From assembly GCF_950097975.1 (NCBI RefSeq), contig NZ_CATNHF010000030.1, positions 62,001 to 126,000 of the forward strand: 64,000 bases of DNA, written 5' to 3'. The notes beneath the pieces were generated by a model. That model was not told where the DNA came from, did not search any database, and worked only from the letters and a program-made list of their open reading frames with translations. This document shows positions 29,399 to 62,373 of the stretch, piece after piece. This DNA is from Microbacterium sp. T2.11-28 (lineage in GTDB: Bacteria; Actinomycetota; Actinomycetes; Actinomycetales; Microbacteriaceae). A program made the position numbers and the translations under genes. Each line of letters opens with the position of its first letter. Positions within the stretch are counted from its first letter, which is position 1.

Positions 29399-31066
29399 TC
29401 AGCCCTTGACGGGCTCGAGGGTGGTGAGGATGAGGACGGCGCTGCGGGCCCGCACCGCCCCGAGGGAGGCGTACGGGTCGTCCTCGTCGGGCCAGCCGGT
29501 GAAGCGCAGCGTGCTGGCGGCACCGAACTCGGGTCCGGGGAAGAGTGCCACCACCGGCGCCTCCTCGGCGAACTGCGCCTGCAGCTGGTTCATGATCGAC
29601 CGCTGCTGCGCCTCATCGGAGGTCGCCGCGAACTCGGCCAGCAGCGCATCGGCCTCAGCGCTGCCGTAGCGGTGGTAGTTCTCGAACGTCTGCTCGCCCG
29701 TGGGCTTGACGGTCTCGGTCGACATCACCCCGCGATAGAACTGGTACGGGGTCGGGGCGTTGTTGCTCCACACGATGCCCGACTCGAACGTGCCGTTCTC
29801 ATAGCTCGACACGACCTCTGCCCAGTCGCGGGCTGCGACGTTGACCGTCACCCCGAGATCGGCGAGGTTCTGCGAGATGACGTTTCCGACCGACACCCAG
29901 TCGCTCGAGGTCGAGCCCACGGAGAAATCGAACTCGAACGGGCTGCCGTCGGGCAGCACGCGCGTGCCGTCTGCGCCGAGAGTGATGCCGGCGGCGTCCA
30001 GCAGCTTGGCCGCGCCGTCGAGATCGCGCTTCGTCCACGTGCACGAGTCGACGACCTCCTGGTCGCGCCAGCTGTCGTAGGCACCGGAGAGACCGGTGCA
30101 GTCCGCGGGCACCGTGTAGCCCTGCATGCCGATCGAGGTCACCTGATCGCGGTCGACGGCCATCGACAGCGCCTTGCGCACGTTCGGGTCGTCGAAGGGC
30201 GCCTGCGTGGTGTTGAACTGCCAGCTGACCATCGACCCGGTCGTGGGGAACCAGTAGAACCGGTGCTCCGGGTCTTTGGCGACGAAGGCCTGCTCGATGT
30301 TCGGGATGAACTGCGGCGACCAGTCGACGTCTCCGTTGGCGGCGGCGAGGTTCGCACCGTCGTTGCCGGCGAAGGCCAGCATCCGCACGCCCTCGATCTT
30401 CTGCTTCTCGGGCTGCCAGTAATGCGGGTTCTTCAGGAGGTCGAACGACTGCGCCTGGAAGTTCGTGACCTCCGTGTAGGGGCCCGTGCCGACCGGCTCG
30501 GGGTTGGTCTCCTTGGCCGGGTCGTCGAACTCGCTCCAGATGTGCGCGGGCGCGATGATCTGCTGCCCGACATCGAGGAGCGCGGGCGAGAACGGCTCGC
30601 TGAAGTCGAACTCCACCGTCTGCGGGTCGACGGCGGTGACCGTGTCGATGTAGTCGAAGCCGCCACGGATCTCGCGCTGCAGGTCGAAGCTGACGACCAC
30701 GTCTTCGGCCTCGAACGGTTCACCGTCGGACCAGCTGACGTCGTCGCGCAGATGGAACGTGATGCCCGTCCCGTCGTCGGCGACCTCCCACTCCGTCGCC
30801 AGCCACGGCGTCGTGGTGCCGTCGGCGGGGTTGAAGACGAGCATCGATTCGTAGATCGCCACCTGCGTCATGGGGAAGTCGGGGTTGGAGAAGGGATTGA
30901 AGTTGCGGTCGAACGTGCCCATGTCTTCGCGTGGGATCGTCAGCAGCTGCGAGCCGTCGAGTCCGGATGCCTCGGGGGACGTGGTCCCCCCGCACCCGGT
31001 GAGCGCAAGCGCTACCGCCAGCGCGCCGGCGGCGAGTACCGCCGCGCGGCCTCTGTGAAGTGTCAT
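29399..31066 (-). CDS. Family-5 extracellular solute-binding lipoprotein (locus B)
   Basis: A 555-residue binding protein of the peptide/nickel/oligosaccharide (OppA/DppA) type. RAAVLAAGALAVALALTGCGG is a lipoprotein signal peptide with Cys anchor. The family's conserved region is seen in TFHLRDDVSWSDGEPFEAED, and the later part has DDPNVRKALSMAVDRDQV. Members of this family bind peptides but some bind oligosaccharides; two GH32 genes and a sugar kinase in the operon favour a fructo-oligosaccharide. It lies 62 bases downstream of the LacI gene with no operator in between, so it is probably read from the LacI promoter. Confidence 0.92.
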   Translation of the reverse strand: MTLHRGRAAVLAAGALAVALALTGCGGTTSPEASGLDGSQLLTIPREDMGTFDRNFNPFSNPDFPMTQVAIYESMLVFNPADGTTTPWLATEWEVADDGTGITFHLRDDVSWSDGEPFEAEDVVVSFDLQREIRGGFDYIDTVTAVDPQTVEFDFSEPFSPALLDVGQQIIAPAHIWSEFDDPAKETNPEPVGTGPYTEVTNFQAQSFDLLKNPHYWQPEKQKIEGVRMLAFAGNDGANLAAANGDVDWSPQFIPNIEQAFVAKDPEHRFYWFPTTGSMVSWQFNTTQAPFDDPNVRKALSMAVDRDQVTSIGMQGYTVPADCTGLSGAYDSWRDQEVVDSCTWTKRDLDGAAKLLDAAGITLGADGTRVLPDGSPFEFDFSVGSTSSDWVSVGNVISQNLADLGVTVNVAARDWAEVVSSYENGTFESGIVWSNNAPTPYQFYRGVMSTETVKPTGEQTFENYHRYGSAEADALLAEFAATSDEAQQRSIMNQLQAQFAEEAPVVALFPGPEFGAASTLRFTGWPDEDDPYASLGAVRARSAVLILTTLEPVKG

Positions 31067-55577: not shown

Positions 55578-56555
55578 TCAGCCGACGAAGGCCCAGAACA
55601 GGAACCCGGCGTAGGCGAGCGATGTCAGCGACGTGACGCTGAGCGCGACGACCAGCTCCCGCGGGTCGCGGTAGGTCCACACGATGAGCACCGCCGCCAG
55701 CGCCGGCAGCAGCCCCAGCAGCGACAGCCACGCGATCGGGTACACCAGGGCCAGCACCGCCGCGATCGCGAAGGGCACCAGGATCAGCACGGTGAACAGG
55801 ATCTGCGTGGCGCGCTTGCCGATCAGCACCGACAGCGTGCGCTTGCCCGCGAGGCGGTCCTGCTCGAGGTCGCGGAGGTTGTTGGCCAGCAGCACCGCGC
55901 AGGCGAGCAGCCCCGCTGCGACCGCGCCGAACCACGCCTCATCCGGCACGGCACCCGCCTGGACGAAGGTCGTGCCGAGCGTGGCCACGAGCCCGAAGAA
56001 GACGAAGACGAACAGCTCGCCGAGGCCGTAGTAGCCGTACGGGCGCTTGCCGCCGGTGTAGAACCAGGCGGCGACGATGCACACGGCCCCCACGAGCAGG
56101 AGCCACCAGTGGCCGGTGCGCACGACGATCGCGATGCCCGCTGCGGCGGCGATCCCGAAGAAGGCGAGGGCGACGGCGAGGACGGCGCGCGGGCTCGCCT
56201 TGCGCGATGCGGTCAGCCGCGCCGGACCGACCCGGTGGTCGTCGGTGCCGCGGATGCCGTCGCTGTAGTCGTTGGCGAAGTTGACGCCGATCTGCAGCGC
56301 CAGGGCCACGACCAGGCACGCGAGCGCGATGACCCAGTGGAAGCGGTTGTCGATGACCCGCGCCGCACCCGTGCCGATCACGACCGGGGCGATCGCCAGC
56401 GGCAGGGTCCGCAGGCGTGCCGCGGCGATCCAGTCGCCGAGCGTCGCCGGGTCGACATGACGCGGGTCGCCGGAGGCCTGCGCCTTCTGCGGGTTGCCGC
56501 GCGGACGCTGCTTCTTCGCGCCGCCGGACTTCTTCTTACGGGTGCTCGCTGCCAC
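55578..56555 (-). CDS. menA: 1,4-dihydroxy-2-naphthoate polyprenyltransferase
   Basis: A 325-residue UbiA-type membrane enzyme that attaches the polyprenyl chain to dihydroxynaphthoate. NFANDYSDGIRGTDDHRVGPARLTAS is the first Asp-rich motif and NLRDLEQDRLAGKRTLSVLIGKR the second; about eight helices can be counted. The first 30 residues are highly basic (RKKKSGGAKKQRPRG). The start is GTG 56555 with TAGGAT 8 bases upstream, though it also follows menE by 38 bases. Confidence 0.95.
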   Translation of the reverse strand: MAASTRKKKSGGAKKQRPRGNPQKAQASGDPRHVDPATLGDWIAAARLRTLPLAIAPVVIGTGAARVIDNRFHWVIALACLVVALALQIGVNFANDYSDGIRGTDDHRVGPARLTASRKASPRAVLAVALAFFGIAAAAGIAIVVRTGHWWLLLVGAVCIVAAWFYTGGKRPYGYYGLGELFVFVFFGLVATLGTTFVQAGAVPDEAWFGAVAAGLLACAVLLANNLRDLEQDRLAGKRTLSVLIGKRATQILFTVLILVPFAIAAVLALVYPIAWLSLLGLLPALAAVLIVWTYRDPRELVVALSVTSLTSLAYAGFLFWAFVG

Positions 56556-56563
56556 GATCGATC

Positions 56564-56569
56564 ATCCTA
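56564..56569 (-). promoter_or_regulatory. Putative -10 box, leaderless, for menA
   Basis: TAGGAT on the minus strand ends 8 bases before the GTG at 56555. Confidence 0.5.
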
Positions 56570-56593
56570 TTGCGCCGCCGTATGGGCGCCCGT

Positions 56594-57739
56594 TCACACC
56601 GCGGCGCGGGCCGCCGCCGCCCGCAGCGCTGCCCGGTCCGGCTTGCCCGAGGGCAGCAGCGGGATCGCCGGCACCGGCAGGATCGCGCGCGGGCGTGCGG
56701 GGGCGCCGAGCGCCTCGCCGACGGCGGACCGCACCTCGCGCAACAGGGCGACGACGTCCGTCCCGGCGAGATCCGCCGCGGGGACGGCGATGACGGATGC
56801 CTCCCCCCACCGCTCGTCCGCCACCGCGACCACGACGGCACCGCTGAGGCCCGGGAGCGTGCGCACCAGCCGTTCGACGCGGTCCAGCGACACGTTGACG
56901 CCGCCCGAGACGATCACGTTGTCTCGGCGACCGGTGACCCGCAGCACGCCGTCGAAGGTGCCGAGGTCGCCCGTCCGGTACCACCGCCGCCCCGCGGCGT
57001 CGTGCACGAAGGCCGCCGCCGTGCGCTCCGGCTCGCCCAGGTAGCCCTCGGCCAGCACGGGTCCGGCCACCTGCACCTCGCCGTCGTCGATGCGGACCGC
57101 GACACCGTCCAGGGGCACGCCGTCGTACACGCAGCCGCCGCTCGTCTCGCTCGCCCCGTAGGTGCGGACCACCCGGACACCCGCCGCCTGCGCACGCTCG
57201 GCCAGCGGCGCCGCCAGGGCCTGCCCGCCCACCAGCACCGCCTCGAAGCGCCGCAGGCCCGTGCGGACGCCGTCGTCCTCGGCGTCGAGGAGGGTCTGCA
57301 GCTGCGCCGGCACGAGCGAGGTGTACATGGGCACGGCGGCGCCACCGTCGCTGGAGGCCATGGCGCCCGCGGCGGCGGCGAAGGCGTGGGCGGAGAACGA
57401 GCCCGCCAGGATCGCGGGCTCCCTGCCCGAGACGAGCGCGCGCACGAGCACCTGCACGCCGGCGATGTAGCCGGCCGGGAGCGCGAGGAGCCAGGCACCC
57501 GAGCCGATCCGGTCCGCCGTGGCCAGCGCACTGGAGGTCAGCGCCGATCTGCTGAGCACGACCGACTTGGGGTGACCGGTCGACCCCGACGTCGTGACGA
57601 TGACGGCCGTGCCGGAGGGCACCTCACCGGCCGGCACGCCGCCGCCGAGGGTGATCGCCGGACCGGCGCCGAGGACCGCCCCGCGCAGCCCGCGGAGCAC
57701 CGCGCGAGGGTCGTCGCCCTCGACCGGCTCCGCTCTCAT
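56594..57739 (-). CDS. menE: o-Succinylbenzoate-CoA ligase
   Basis: A 381-residue adenylate-forming enzyme activating o-succinylbenzoate with CoA. VIVTTSGSTGHPKSVVLSRSAL is the phosphate-binding loop, RTYGASETSGGCVYDGVPLDGV the central motif, YRTGDLGTFDG the Asp hinge region and GRRDNVIVSGGVNVSLDRVE the next motif; PSGKPDRAAL carries the catalytic Lys. It is short for the family, as usual for actinobacterial MenE. It follows menB by 25 bases. Confidence 0.94.
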   Translation of the reverse strand: MRAEPVEGDDPRAVLRGLRGAVLGAGPAITLGGGVPAGEVPSGTAVIVTTSGSTGHPKSVVLSRSALTSSALATADRIGSGAWLLALPAGYIAGVQVLVRALVSGREPAILAGSFSAHAFAAAAGAMASSDGGAAVPMYTSLVPAQLQTLLDAEDDGVRTGLRRFEAVLVGGQALAAPLAERAQAAGVRVVRTYGASETSGGCVYDGVPLDGVAVRIDDGEVQVAGPVLAEGYLGEPERTAAAFVHDAAGRRWYRTGDLGTFDGVLRVTGRRDNVIVSGGVNVSLDRVERLVRTLPGLSGAVVVAVADERWGEASVIAVPAADLAGTDVVALLREVRSAVGEALGAPARPRAILPVPAIPLLPSGKPDRAALRAAAARAAV

Positions 57740-57764
57740 CGCCTGCGCCCCATCCCGCCCCGCC

Positions 57765-58682
<918 letters not shown>

Positions 58683-58747: not shown

Positions 58748-59287
58748 GTGACCCTGCAGACCCGCCTCCTCGCCCTGGCCTCGGCCACCGCCCTCGCGCT
58801 CTCCCTCGCCGCCTGCACCGCGACGACCGAGCCCGCAGAGACGCCCACCCCCACGACCGCTGCGGCGGTGACGGAGGGCGCCTGCGCGGACGACTCCGGC
58901 GTGACGCTGTCGGTCGACGCGTCGGCCCTGCCCGGAGGTTCGGCGCAGGAGTGGTGCCGCCCGGCCGACGAGCAGATCGCGGTCGCCGACCTCCTGGAGG
59001 ATGCCGAGGTCACCCTCCAGGGCACCGACGAGTACCCGGACTTCATCTGCCGTGTGAACGGGCTGCCGTCCGCCGACGAGCCGCTGGGGTCGACGGAGGA
59101 TCCCGAGTACGTCGAGACGTGCGCCAGCACTCCCCCCGGCTTCGGCTACTGGGCGCTGTGGGTCAAGCCCGCCGGCGGTGAGTGGGCGTACGCCGAGGAG
59201 GGCGTCGCCACGCTGCGCGCCCAGCCCGGCGAGAGCATCGGCCTGCTGTTCACCCTCGACGGTGCGCCGGCCGCGCCCACGTCGTGA
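58748..59287 (+). CDS. Lipoprotein with DUF4430-like C-terminal part, partner of the ECF transporter
   Basis: A 179-residue exported protein. RLLALASATALALSLAACTAT is a lipoprotein signal peptide with Cys anchor. After a Thr/Pro-rich linker the mature domain has Cys residues in GACADDSG, EWCRPAD, FICRVNG and ETCAST, and ends with GFGYWALWVKPAGGEWAYAE, VATLRAQPGESIGLLF, which resembles the DUF4430 fold found in transcobalamin-type and related ligand-binding proteins. Its TGA overlaps the GTG of the ECF gene (GTGA), so it is very likely an accessory substrate-capturing part of that transporter; the ligand is unknown, with cobalamin one candidate. Confidence 0.72.
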   Translation: MTLQTRLLALASATALALSLAACTATTEPAETPTPTTAAAVTEGACADDSGVTLSVDASALPGGSAQEWCRPADEQIAVADLLEDAEVTLQGTDEYPDFICRVNGLPSADEPLGSTEDPEYVETCASTPPGFGYWALWVKPAGGEWAYAEEGVATLRAQPGESIGLLFTLDGAPAAPTS

Positions 59288-62200
59288 GCTTCCGACCCGG
59301 ACCGCTGCGAGCGGCGGCCGCACTGGCCGTCGGCTTCATCGCGGTCCGGGTCGTCTACCGGGTGCTGTTCCACGGCGCCGACGGCGCGGGGACGCTCCTG
59401 CTCGACCTGCCGGCGCTGCGGCTGCCCCCGCCCCTCGGTCACGTGGAGCTGTTCGGGCCGGTGACCTCGGGCGGGCTGTGGACGGCCGCGTCGTCGGCGC
59501 TGCCGATCGCGGGCGTCATCCTCGCCTTCGGAGTCCTCAACGCCCTCCTCGACGTGCCGCGGCTGCTGGCCCGCGGCGCGCGCACCGGCCCGCTGCGCGG
59601 TCTCGCCCGCGCGCTCTCGGTCGCGTGGGCGACGCTGCCGGCGCTCGTGGACGCGGTGCGCGCGGTCCGCTTCGCGCAGCGGCTGCGCGGCGAGCGCCCG
59701 GGGGCGCGGATCCTCGCGCCGGTGCTGGAGCGCACGATCGAGCGCGCCACGGCCGTGGCGGCGGCGCTGGAGCTGCGCGGCTACGCGGGGCGGGCTCTCG
59801 ACGGGGACTGCGCGCACCCCGTCGACGTCACCGAGCTCCGGGCGGGATTCGACGGCCGCACGCGCGGCGGGAGTCGCCGAGACGGCACGGTCGTGCATGC
59901 CCCCGCCCTGGCGCTCGCCCCGGGCGAGATGGTCGTGCTCGGCGGACCGACCGGATCGGGCAAGTCCACGCTCCTGCGCGCCCTCAGCGGCCTGCACTCC
60001 CACGTCGACGGCGGCACGCTCTCGGGCGAGGTCCGCGTCGTCGGCCACGACCGCGCGACCACGCCCCCGCGCGACACGGCGCGGACGGTGGGCGTCGTCC
60101 TCCAGCATCCGCGCGAGGCGTTCGCCACCGAGCGGGTGGACGACGAGATCGGACTGAGCCTGGAGCTGCGGGCGGTCGCGCCGGTCCTGCGCGCCGCGCG
60201 CGTGCGCGAGGTCGCCGCCCGGGTGGGGATCGTCCCGCTGCTCGGGCGCCGCGTGCGCGGGCTCTCCGCCGGCGAGGCGACGCTCGTCGCGATCGCCGCC
60301 GCGATCGTGGAGCACCCCGTGCTGCTGCTGGTCGACGAGCCCCTCGCCGACCTCGACGCGGCCTCCCGGCGGCGCATCGTCACCCTCCTCGGCGCGCTCG
60401 CGCACGAGGCGGGCATCTGCGTCGTCGTCGCCGAGCACCGCACCGACGCGCTCGCCGGCGTCGCCGACCGGGTGCTGTGGATCGACGGCGGCGACGTCGG
60501 CGAGCGCGCGCGCACGGACAGCGGCGTGCCGCATCCGGAGCCGGGGGTGCGTCCTCGCGAGGCGGACGCGGCGGATGCGGAGGTGCTCGAGGGTGCGGGG
60601 GTGCGCGAGGGTGCAGGGGTGCTCGAGGGTGCAGGGATGCTCGAGGGTGCAGGGATGCTCGAGGGTGCGGGGGTGCGCGAGCGTCCCGTGGTGCTCGAGG
60701 GTGCAGAGGTGCTCGAGCGTCCCGTGGTGCTCGACGCGCCCGGCGTGACCGTGCGGCACGGCGACCGGCTGGCCGTCGACGGCGCCGCAGTGACGCTCCG
60801 CGCCGGCGAGCGCGTCGCCCTCGTGGGCGCGAACGGCGCCGGCAAGTCGAGCCTGCTGGCCGCGCTCGCGACCGGCACCGGCGGCGCTCCCTCCCCCGGG
60901 CGACGGGTCGCGCTCGTCCCCGACGCGTCCGACGACCTGTTCGTCCGCGAGATCGTCGGCGCGGAGTGCCGTCGCGTCGACCGGCGCGCCGGCGCGACGC
61001 CGGGCACGACGCTCTCCCGGTTCGCTGCGCTGCTCGGCCGGGACGACGACGCGCGCACGCTGAGCACACGGCACCCGCGCGACCTCTCCGCCGGCGAGCG
61101 CCGCTGTCTCGCGATCGCTCTGCAGACGGCTCACCGCCCGGCCGTGCTCCTCGTCGACGAGCCGACGCGCGGACTCGATCCCGCCGCCCGCGACCTCGTG
61201 CAGCGCACCCTGCGGGCAGCGGCGGATGCCGGGACGGCGGTGATGTTCGCCACCCACGACGCGGCCTTCGCCGCCGGCCTCGCCGACCGCGTGATCACGA
61301 TGACGTCCGGAGCGCTGACGTCCGGAGCGCTGACGTCCGGGGCGCTGACGGCGGATGCCGAGGGGCCGCTGTGGGACGATGCGGCGCCCGAGTCCCACGC
61401 CGCGGCGCAGGAAGCCGAGGCTGAGGCGCGGGATCGCCCGGTGCAGGCGCGGGATCGCCCGGTGCAGGCGCACGACCGCCCGGTGCCGGCGCACGCGCCG
61501 ACCGCGGCGGCGGCGACCCCCACGCCCGTCCGGGGCCCGCGCCGACGGGGGCTGCGCGGGCGCGCGATCGCCCTCGTCGGCGCCCAGCTGGTCGCGGTCG
61601 CCGCATTCCTGTGGCCGCTCGTGGCGTCGGCCGTGCCCGCGCAGGCACAGGCGGCGGTGCCCTACATCGCGCTGTCGCTGGCGCCGCTGGCGGTCGTCCT
61701 CGTGCTCGCCGCGCTCGATGCGTCGGTGCGCTCGGCGCACACGCTCGCGCTGCTGGCAGTCCTGGCCGCCGTCGGCGCGGCCGTACGGATCGCGAGCACC
61801 GGAGTCGGCGGCGTCGAGGCGCTGTTCGTGCTGCTCATCCTCGCCGGCCGCGCCTTCGGCCCGCGCTTCGGGCTGCTCCTCGGGGCGGCGGCGATCGCAC
61901 TGTCCGCGGTCATGTGGGGCGGGATCGGTCCCTGGCTGCCGTTCCAGATGTTCGCCTGCGGCTGGGTCGGGGCGGGCGCCGGCCTGCTGCCGCGGCGCGT
62001 GCGCGGTGCGGGGGAGATCGCCATGCTGTGCGCCTACGGCATCGTCTCGTCGTACCTCTTCGGCCTGGTGATGAACATGTGGTTCTGGCCGTTCGCCGTC
62101 GGCGCCGGGACGAGCATCTCGTACGTGCCGGGCGGGTCGCTTGCCGAGAACCTCGGCAACTTCCTGGTCTACTCGCTCGTCACCTCCACGGCGACCTGGG

Positions 62201-62373
62201 ACACCCTGCGCGCCGTCACCACCGTGATCGGTCTCCTGCTCGTCGGCCGCGCGGTGCTGTCGTCGCTGCGCCGCGCGAAGCCCGTGGTCTCCCCTGTCGT
62301 CTCCTCGGTGGCCTCCCCGGTCGTCTCCTCGGCGACCTCCCCGGTGACGCGACAGGCCTTCACCCGCCGGTGA
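59284..62373 (+). CDS. Single-chain ECF transporter: EcfT, two EcfA ATPases and S component fused
   Basis: A 1029-residue membrane transporter for a micronutrient. Residues about 1-185 are an EcfT-like part with two clear helices and the coupling segment ERATAVAAALELRGYAGR. The first ATPase has Walker A GPTGSGKST (221-229), signature LSAGE (327-331) and Walker B LLLVDEP (Asp351, Glu352). The second has GANGAGKSS (515-523), LSAGE (601-605) and LLVDEPT (Asp625, Glu626). After another linker, about 750-1000 hold five to six helices of an S component (VEALFVLLILAGRAFGPRFG, FQMFACGWVGAGAGLLP, FGLVMNMWFWPF). The linkers carry tandem repeats. The usual four subunits are thus joined in one chain. The upstream lipoprotein overlaps it; cobalamin or another vitamin is likely but not proven. 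Confidence 0.85.
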   Translation: MSFRPGPLRAAAALAVGFIAVRVVYRVLFHGADGAGTLLLDLPALRLPPPLGHVELFGPVTSGGLWTAASSALPIAGVILAFGVLNALLDVPRLLARGARTGPLRGLARALSVAWATLPALVDAVRAVRFAQRLRGERPGARILAPVLERTIERATAVAAALELRGYAGRALDGDCAHPVDVTELRAGFDGRTRGGSRRDGTVVHAPALALAPGEMVVLGGPTGSGKSTLLRALSGLHSHVDGGTLSGEVRVVGHDRATTPPRDTARTVGVVLQHPREAFATERVDDEIGLSLELRAVAPVLRAARVREVAARVGIVPLLGRRVRGLSAGEATLVAIAAAIVEHPVLLLVDEPLADLDAASRRRIVTLLGALAHEAGICVVVAEHRTDALAGVADRVLWIDGGDVGERARTDSGVPHPEPGVRPREADAADAEVLEGAGVREGAGVLEGAGMLEGAGMLEGAGVRERPVVLEGAEVLERPVVLDAPGVTVRHGDRLAVDGAAVTLRAGERVALVGANGAGKSSLLAALATGTGGAPSPGRRVALVPDASDDLFVREIVGAECRRVDRRAGATPGTTLSRFAALLGRDDDARTLSTRHPRDLSAGERRCLAIALQTAHRPAVLLVDEPTRGLDPAARDLVQRTLRAAADAGTAVMFATHDAAFAAGLADRVITMTSGALTSGALTSGALTADAEGPLWDDAAPESHAAAQEAEAEARDRPVQARDRPVQAHDRPVPAHAPTAAAATPTPVRGPRRRGLRGRAIALVGAQLVAVAAFLWPLVASAVPAQAQAAVPYIALSLAPLAVVLVLAALDASVRSAHTLALLAVLAAVGAAVRIASTGVGGVEALFVLLILAGRAFGPRFGLLLGAAAIALSAVMWGGIGPWLPFQMFACGWVGAGAGLLPRRVRGAGEIAMLCAYGIVSSYLFGLVMNMWFWPFAVGAGTSISYVPGGSLAENLGNFLVYSLVTSTATWDTLRAVTTVIGLLLVGRAVLSSLRRAKPVVSPVVSSVASPVVSSATSPVTRQAFTRR
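60582..60743 (+). repeat. Nine in-frame 18-base repeats in the linker between the two ATPase domains
   Basis: The unit GGTGCTCGAGGGTGCAGG and its variants occur nine times without gap (162 bases), encoding hexapeptides such as VLEGAG, VREGAG, MLEGAG and VLERPV at about residues 433-487. Because the unit is a multiple of three, copy number can change without breaking the frame. Confidence 0.9.
61303..61347 (+). repeat. Three in-frame 15-base repeats after the second ATPase domain
   Basis: ACGTCCGGAGCGCTG is present three times, with one base changed in the last copy, encoding TSGAL repeats. Confidence 0.9.
61426..61488 (+). repeat. Three in-frame 21-base repeats before the S component
   Basis: The unit encodes ARDRPVQ, ARDRPVQ and AHDRPVP. 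The first two copies are identical at the DNA level, which suggests recent duplication. Confidence 0.9.

Follow-up and report, generated by a model that had tools for sequence, protein, structure and literature searches.

The energy-coupling factor (ECF) transporter ECF-CbrT of Lactobacillus delbrueckii consists of T, A, A' and S parts, and its S component, CbrT, is a separate subunit that shares the ECF module with other S components, as in group II systems, and leaves and rejoins the module in an ATP-dependent manner (PMC5997447 and PMC12075633, in the passages drawn on here). In the passages of PMC12075633 cited here, the dissociation of CbrT from the module is ATP-dependent and the authors leave open whether its expulsion is essential; group I transporters are described there as having one module and one dedicated S component. 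Fusions of A to A' are described in the cited part of PMC6828968. No description of a T-A-A-S fusion came up among the titles and abstract openings of open-licence papers listed in literature searches, and an earlier mention in the 2009 comparative-genomics survey of ECF transporters (J. Bacteriol. 191:42) is possible. Here we describe a gene of this kind at 59284–62373 (+ strand) of a 64,000-nucleotide stretch of Microbacterium sp. T2.11-28 (contig NZ_CATNHF010000030.1, positions 62,001–126,000), referred to as the window. With a probability of roughly 0.8, we infer that this gene encodes a complete ECF-type ATP-binding cassette (ABC) importer in a single chain, with a short T part, A, A' and S, and that the importer most likely takes up cobalamin or another corrinoid for use by the nearby B12-dependent methionine synthase MetH.

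The fused protein resembles ECF-CbrT in having T, A, A' and S parts and presumably in its substrate, but its S part is tied to the short T and to both ATPases. Group I transporters likewise have one dedicated S for one module, but in the fused protein all four parts are covalently joined. Unfused actinobacterial clusters contain related S, A-A' and T parts and the same secreted partner protein, named BETA here; they differ in that separate genes encode T, AA and S, the T proteins mostly have five to seven hydropathy helices, the Q-loop of A' retains Gln, and many of them carry a second secreted protein, ALPHA, and a cobalamin riboswitch. The covalent attachment of S argues for a dedicated module rather than a shared module of the group II type, and assembly would then be fixed at one S per transporter, unless the module also serves another S in trans.

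Domain organization of the fused gene

The gene is a single open frame of 1029 codons; counted from 59182, no stop codon interrupts the frame before its terminal TGA, the last base of which is 62373. Its GTG start codon overlaps the stop codon of the upstream gene (58748–59287). Promoter and terminator scans found nothing. A sequence-only reading of the window had proposed that an EcfT-like segment, two ATPase domains and an S-like domain follow one another in this uninterrupted frame. The proposal is borne out by the open frame itself, by Pfam matches to CbiQ and twice to ABC_tran, and by the S fold of the C-terminal part. The parts are as follows.

59284–62373, + strand: fused ECF transporter gene in T-A-A'-S order; 1029 amino acids, start GTG, stop TGA
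59284–59793, + strand: reduced EcfT domain, residues 1–170; membrane helices 5–28 and 62–88, long coupling helices 105–135 and 141–164
59866–60519, + strand: first ATPase domain (A), residues 195–412; GPTGSGKST, LSAGEA, LLVDEP and AEHR, with the Q-loop Gln kept
60520–60714, + strand: disordered linker between A and A', mostly an 18-bp tandem repeat of 8.5 copies (60582–60734)
60715–61332, + strand: second ATPase domain (A'), residues 478–683; GANGAGKSS, LSAGER, LLVDEP and ATHD, with Asp547 at the Q-loop position (codon 60922–60924)
61333–61545, + strand: disordered linker between A' and S, with 15-bp repeats (61301–61350, overlapping the end of A') and 21-bp repeats (61424–61492)
61546–62283, + strand: S-component domain, residues 755–1000, with the S fold
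62284–62370, + strand: C-terminal tail holding a 24-bp repeat of 2.6 copies (62284–62345); disorder begins at residue 1009

The predicted full-chain model has a mean predicted local distance difference test score (pLDDT) of 81.9 and a predicted template modelling score (pTM) of 0.82, and residues 413–471, 684–711, 717–744 and 1009–1029 lie below 50. Two long helices of the model are placed where the coupling helices of EcfT belong. A fold search with the full chain returned, judged by titles, only ABC-type ATPase chains among the best 50 matches listed and was uninformative on T and S. The T segment alone scores 33.4 bits against Pfam CbiQ (cut-off 25) over residues 55–169, in agreement with an EcfT-like N-terminal part. 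Arg-135 of T is invariant in 45 of 45 T sequences; Arg-165 is not.

Both ATPase domains match Pfam ABC_tran and keep the Walker A Lys, the signature Ser, the Walker B Glu and the switch His, as expected from the Walker A, signature and Walker B motifs that the sequence-only reading had assigned to each. The ECF ATPase families TIGR04521 and TIGR04520 of NCBIfam are among the best matches of the fused protein, but under their cut-offs.

The S segment of the window has no significant match of its own in Pfam or NCBIfam. Among 63 aligned S sequences, PF07155 matches 48 and PF12822 matches 45 at E<=1, the best at 3.2e-12. Because the S profile gave chance matches only against the sequences of the PDB, a fold search was needed. 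For the S model built from the 63 sequences (pLDDT 85.5, pTM 0.81), the 22 best PDB matches are without exception ECF S components (ThiT, FolT, RibU, BioY and PanT), with probabilities of 0.91–1.00, target-normalised template modelling scores of 0.46–0.68 and E-values of only 0.02–0.6. The S fold of the model and the S families matching the orthologues are consistent with the earlier assignment of the C-terminal helices to an S component.

Conservation and probable stepwise origin of the fusion

The fusion was followed in a draw of 198 genomes of the genus and a draw of 120 genomes of the family. S is present in 42 of the 198 genus genomes, and a frame of at least 940 codons surrounds it in 40 of these 42; among them, 30 loci were read for A' and S, which stand in a common frame in 28. 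Of the two exceptions, one has a run of N in the linker (L160/G283), and the other changes frame within a linker containing a run of eight C (L013/G198). By this comparison, the absence of stop codons between the parts, which resequencing had been proposed to check, is supported. The T-A-A'-S order in one frame recurs in 10 named Microbacterium loci, and the fused frame is also found in three genomes from two other genera of Microbacteriaceae. A sequencing artefact or an accident of frame is ruled out by this recurrence across the genus and in the other two genera.

Loci were scored with profiles of each part, and 82 of them were placed on a tree: 49 unfused loci, 17 half-fused loci, in which T, A and A' are joined and S is separate, and 16 fused loci. 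The unfused loci come from Streptomyces, Amycolatopsis, Micromonosporaceae, Propionibacteriaceae and others, four of them from Microbacteriaceae, and the half-fused loci from Cryobacterium and other Microbacteriaceae. The 33 half-fused and fused rows lie on one side of a branch with a support of 100, and the 16 fused rows group with the two exceptions (L160 and L013) with a support of 99. This pattern fits two fusion steps, in which the three-gene arrangement of most actinobacteria would have given rise to the half-fused form in part of the Microbacteriaceae and then to the fully fused form. The direction from separate to fused genes is a probable one only, because the tree is a quick, midpoint-rooted build in which long branches meet and joins may be false, that of L157 above all.

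The T part has become much smaller in the fused proteins. Counted by hydropathy over the part of T from the profile match onward, 14 of the 16 fused T parts have two membrane helices and the other two have three, as against five to eight in 44 of 49 free T proteins; the 17 half-fused T parts have one helix in one case, two in 11, three in four and four in one. The sequence-only reading had remarked on an EcfT part with only two clear helices, and this holds for most of the fused proteins. The median number of residues beyond the coupling motif is 151 in free T proteins (47 rows), 25 in fused ones (16 rows) and 28 in half-fused ones (14 rows). The two ATPase domains differ from each other at the Q-loop. 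In A, this position is Gln in 81 of the 82 loci, with one gap. The second domain, A', has Gln there in all 49 unfused loci and an acidic residue, Glu or Asp, in all 33 fused or half-fused ones. As read from the aligned sequences, the acidic residue of A' accompanies the T–A fusion on the tree, and the first fusion step probably went along with the loss of most membrane helices of T and of the Q-loop Gln of A'. Neither a T part with as many membrane helices as in the unfused relatives nor a Q-loop Gln in both ATPase domains is found in the fused protein (Gln in A, Asp in A'), and neither is a strict defining feature of ECF transporters.

The loss of T helices and the change from Gln to Glu or Asp in A' could also mean that the fused version is decaying and has lost transport. 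This is very improbable, since the Q-loop change is common to all 33 half-fused and fused loci over deep branches, A and A' retain their Walker A, signature, Walker B and switch residues across the 82 loci except in one half-fused row, where the alignment of A has a gap at the Walker A Lys, the frame is kept in 40 of 42 genomes, and the S parts of named Microbacterium are 68–80% identical to that of the window.

The linkers bear on whether the four parts stay in one chain. The linker between A' and S is 53–262 amino acids long in the 16 fused loci. The main repeats of the linkers and tail in the window have periods of 15, 18, 21 and 24 bp, all multiples of three; the repeat finder also gives overlapping rows of other periods and weak rows of 12–14 bp elsewhere. 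Long, disordered linkers built of repeats, the S part standing in another frame in one genus genome (L013/G198), and relatives with separate genes on the same tree would all suit an alternative in which the frame is fused in the DNA, but S or other parts are made separately by internal initiation or released by proteolysis of the linkers, giving an ordinary dissociable transporter. Against this, 16 of the 18 loci of the fused clade hold the frame across these linkers, the remaining two being the N gap and the frame change, and the main repeats of the window are of a length that preserves the frame. Within the A'-S linker and the beginning of S, none of the 16 fused loci was found to have an in-frame start codon accompanied by a Shine-Dalgarno-like stretch, as compared with a start of the same kind in 8 of the 17 loci whose S stands in a different frame (7 of 15 if L013 and L160 are set aside); this test of internal starts is weak, because no such start was found in three of three Cryobacterium loci either. 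Separate production of S or other parts seems rather unlikely.

A single chain would place S permanently beside its module. It is about an even chance that the gene represents an ECF module reduced to a minimal EcfT with two membrane helices and an asymmetric ATPase pair, in which S never leaves the module and only undocks and re-docks on its tether, so that the release of free S is unneeded.

Substrate and link to MetH

Most likely, the substrate is cobalamin. A cobalamin transporter may be recognized by B12 control or by a genomic tie to B12 enzymes; here the former lies before unfused relatives and the latter is the tie to MetH. Cobalamin riboswitches (RF00174, above the gathering score) were found at 17 of the 40 unfused loci scanned (5 of 9, 2 of 4, 5 of 9, 3 of 9 and 2 of 9 in the five scan sets), 19 switches in all. 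The scan took in 40 of the 49 unfused loci, the nine left out being mostly on short contigs, and 8 of the 33 fused or half-fused ones. For all 19 switches, the next profile match of the cluster downstream on the same strand is ALPHA or BETA, 125–321 bp away. Three switches (L037, L058 and one of the two in L051) are opposite in strand to the transporter genes and lie ahead of a divergent ALPHA copy. In the unfused loci scanned, cobalamin was the only vitamin with riboswitches at or above the gathering score. A second ALPHA–BETA pair occurs in the unfused clusters of L029, L051, L053, L055, L058 and L061; it is divergent in L051 and L058, both with a cobalamin riboswitch ahead.

MetH is present in 43 of the 198 genus genomes. 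S occurs in 42 of these 43 and in none of the 155 genomes without MetH, and the lone MetH genome without S is 81% complete. In 42 of 42 cases S and MetH lie on one contig and are convergent, and the distance between their profile matches ranges from −13 to 5361 bp (median 536). All 20 MetH genomes of the family survey have S. A MetH profile match lies in the covered flank of 16 of 16 fused, 15 of 17 half-fused and 0 of 49 unfused loci; in the first locus set, MetH was in the flank of 14 of the 16 Microbacteriaceae loci, and the remaining two are short. In the genome of the window, MetH carries the only B12-binding domain found; it lies 3.3 kb downstream of the fused gene, past the end of the window, and CbiC, a marker of corrin synthesis, was not found in this genome. 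In L016 and L012, the end of the S frame runs into that of the convergent MetH match (S to 8796 and MetH from 8714 in L016; S to 8840 and MetH from 8731 in L012).

The gene upstream of the fused gene belongs to the secreted partners of these transporters.

58748–59287, + strand: secreted lipoprotein-like protein of 179 amino acids, homologue of the secreted BETA (SCO2322-like) proteins of unfused operons

Its signal ends in Leu-Ala-Ala-Cys, which we take to be a lipoprotein motif. The product matches NF040672 weakly (20.2 bits, cut-off 85), and tblastn with BETA proteins of Amycolatopsis gave E-values of 5.8e-13 and 4.1e-10 (L003). By profile, BETA is present in 40 of 49 unfused, 17 of 17 half-fused and 16 of 16 fused loci, and ALPHA, a secreted toroid encoded before or after the transporter genes, in 35 of 49, 0 of 17 and 0 of 16, respectively. 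BETA and ALPHA match the NCBIfam families SCO2322 and SCO2321, respectively, weakly and below the cut-offs. The best matches of the ALPHA proteins are toroid families (SQHop_cyclase_C, 19 of 19), and 8 of 19 also match PF01122 ('Eukaryotic cobalamin-binding protein') weakly, the best with an E-value of 0.0025.

One half of transcobalamin and of intrinsic factor is a toroid. In the cited part of PMC4350170, DUF4430 is described in the C-terminal region of transcobalamins. When the BETA family was compared with 24 DUF4430 segments by hhalign, a first run gave a probability of 17% (P 0.0014), and trimmed columns gave 41% (P 2.7e-4, 67 columns), a value reached in none of 200 column shuffles. BETA profiles gave nothing meaningful against the PDB and Pfam. 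The unfused clusters would, like transcobalamin, combine a secreted toroid with a secreted beta-like protein remotely resembling DUF4430; they differ in that the likeness is remote and the halves are separate proteins, and the window has the beta-like lipoprotein only. At this level of sequence similarity, a transcobalamin-like role of the secreted proteins is no more than suggestive.

Several observations weigh against a corrinoid importer serving MetH. The S orthologues match folate- and riboflavin-type models rather than a B12-specific one. No cobalamin riboswitch was found in the genome of the window, in positions 30000–64000 of the window or in the eight fused and half-fused loci scanned. 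S does not always stand next to MetH in the family: 14 of the 20 regions retrieved contain MetH, and four of the remaining six come from genomes that have it at another place. S occurs without MetH in 3 of 23 S-bearing family genomes (G064, G075 and, with a marginal match, G104). The Fisher values of 2.3e-42 and 6e-20 assume independent genomes, which these genomes are not. B12 is not needed for methionine in the genome of the window, because MetE is also present. Pfam DUF4430 (PF14478) matches none of 38 BETA members and nothing in the genome of the window. Lastly, an A' without the Q-loop Gln next to a short T could mean weak coupling.

Some of these points would also suit a single-chain ECF importer for another micronutrient such as folate, thiamin or riboflavin, with the link to MetH reflecting methionine or one-carbon metabolism: folate- and riboflavin-type models are the best matches of the S orthologues, the fused loci scanned are without a riboswitch, and MetH also uses methyl-folate. 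This alternative is quite unlikely, because cobalamin riboswitches and no other vitamin riboswitches at the gathering score lie ahead of the unfused clusters, the tie is to a B12-dependent synthase even though the genome keeps MetE too, and there is a weak likeness between the secreted partners and both halves of transcobalamin. Two of the family genomes with S and without MetH, G064 and G075 (L148 and L149), carry a cobalamin riboswitch. Uptake of cobalamin or another corrinoid for MetH is the reading we prefer.

Proposed transport cycle and neighbouring genes

We infer that such an importer could work along the lines of other ECF transporters, with S alternating between docked and undocked states, as follows. 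The lipoprotein encoded at 58748–59287 may help to capture the corrinoid outside the cell, and the S domain would bind it. Binding and hydrolysis of ATP by the A–A' pair would shift the coupling helices of the short T, so that S would topple and the vitamin would be released inside. In the reset, S would undock, be held by the flexible linker and re-dock on the same module. Transport, capture by the lipoprotein, tethered toppling and the lack of S exchange are all conditional parts of this scheme.

With S tied to its module, probably for the same vitamin as CbrT, the fused protein would offer a natural test of whether S must leave the module during the cycle, for which no engineered fusion is needed. 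The reduced T and the acidic Q-loop residue illustrate which features may become dispensable in an ECF module dedicated to a single S. The locus also suggests how Microbacteriaceae with MetH may import B12, and what function the related clusters of other actinobacteria, which encode SCO2321- and SCO2322-like proteins, may have.

Upstream of the cluster, the genes at 55578–58682 (− strand) are presumably MenA-, MenE- and MenB-like genes of menaquinone synthesis. Of 12 named Microbacterium loci, all but L016 have the MenB-like gene beside the cluster, as against 0 of 3 Cryobacterium loci. In two small Microbacteriaceae genomes with unfused clusters (L153 and L154), a transfer-messenger RNA (tmRNA) gene lies on the opposite strand about 2 kb after S. 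The genome of the window contains two further CbiQ-type ECF systems (C12:283599–284237 and C23:202387–202986), apparently with separate genes.

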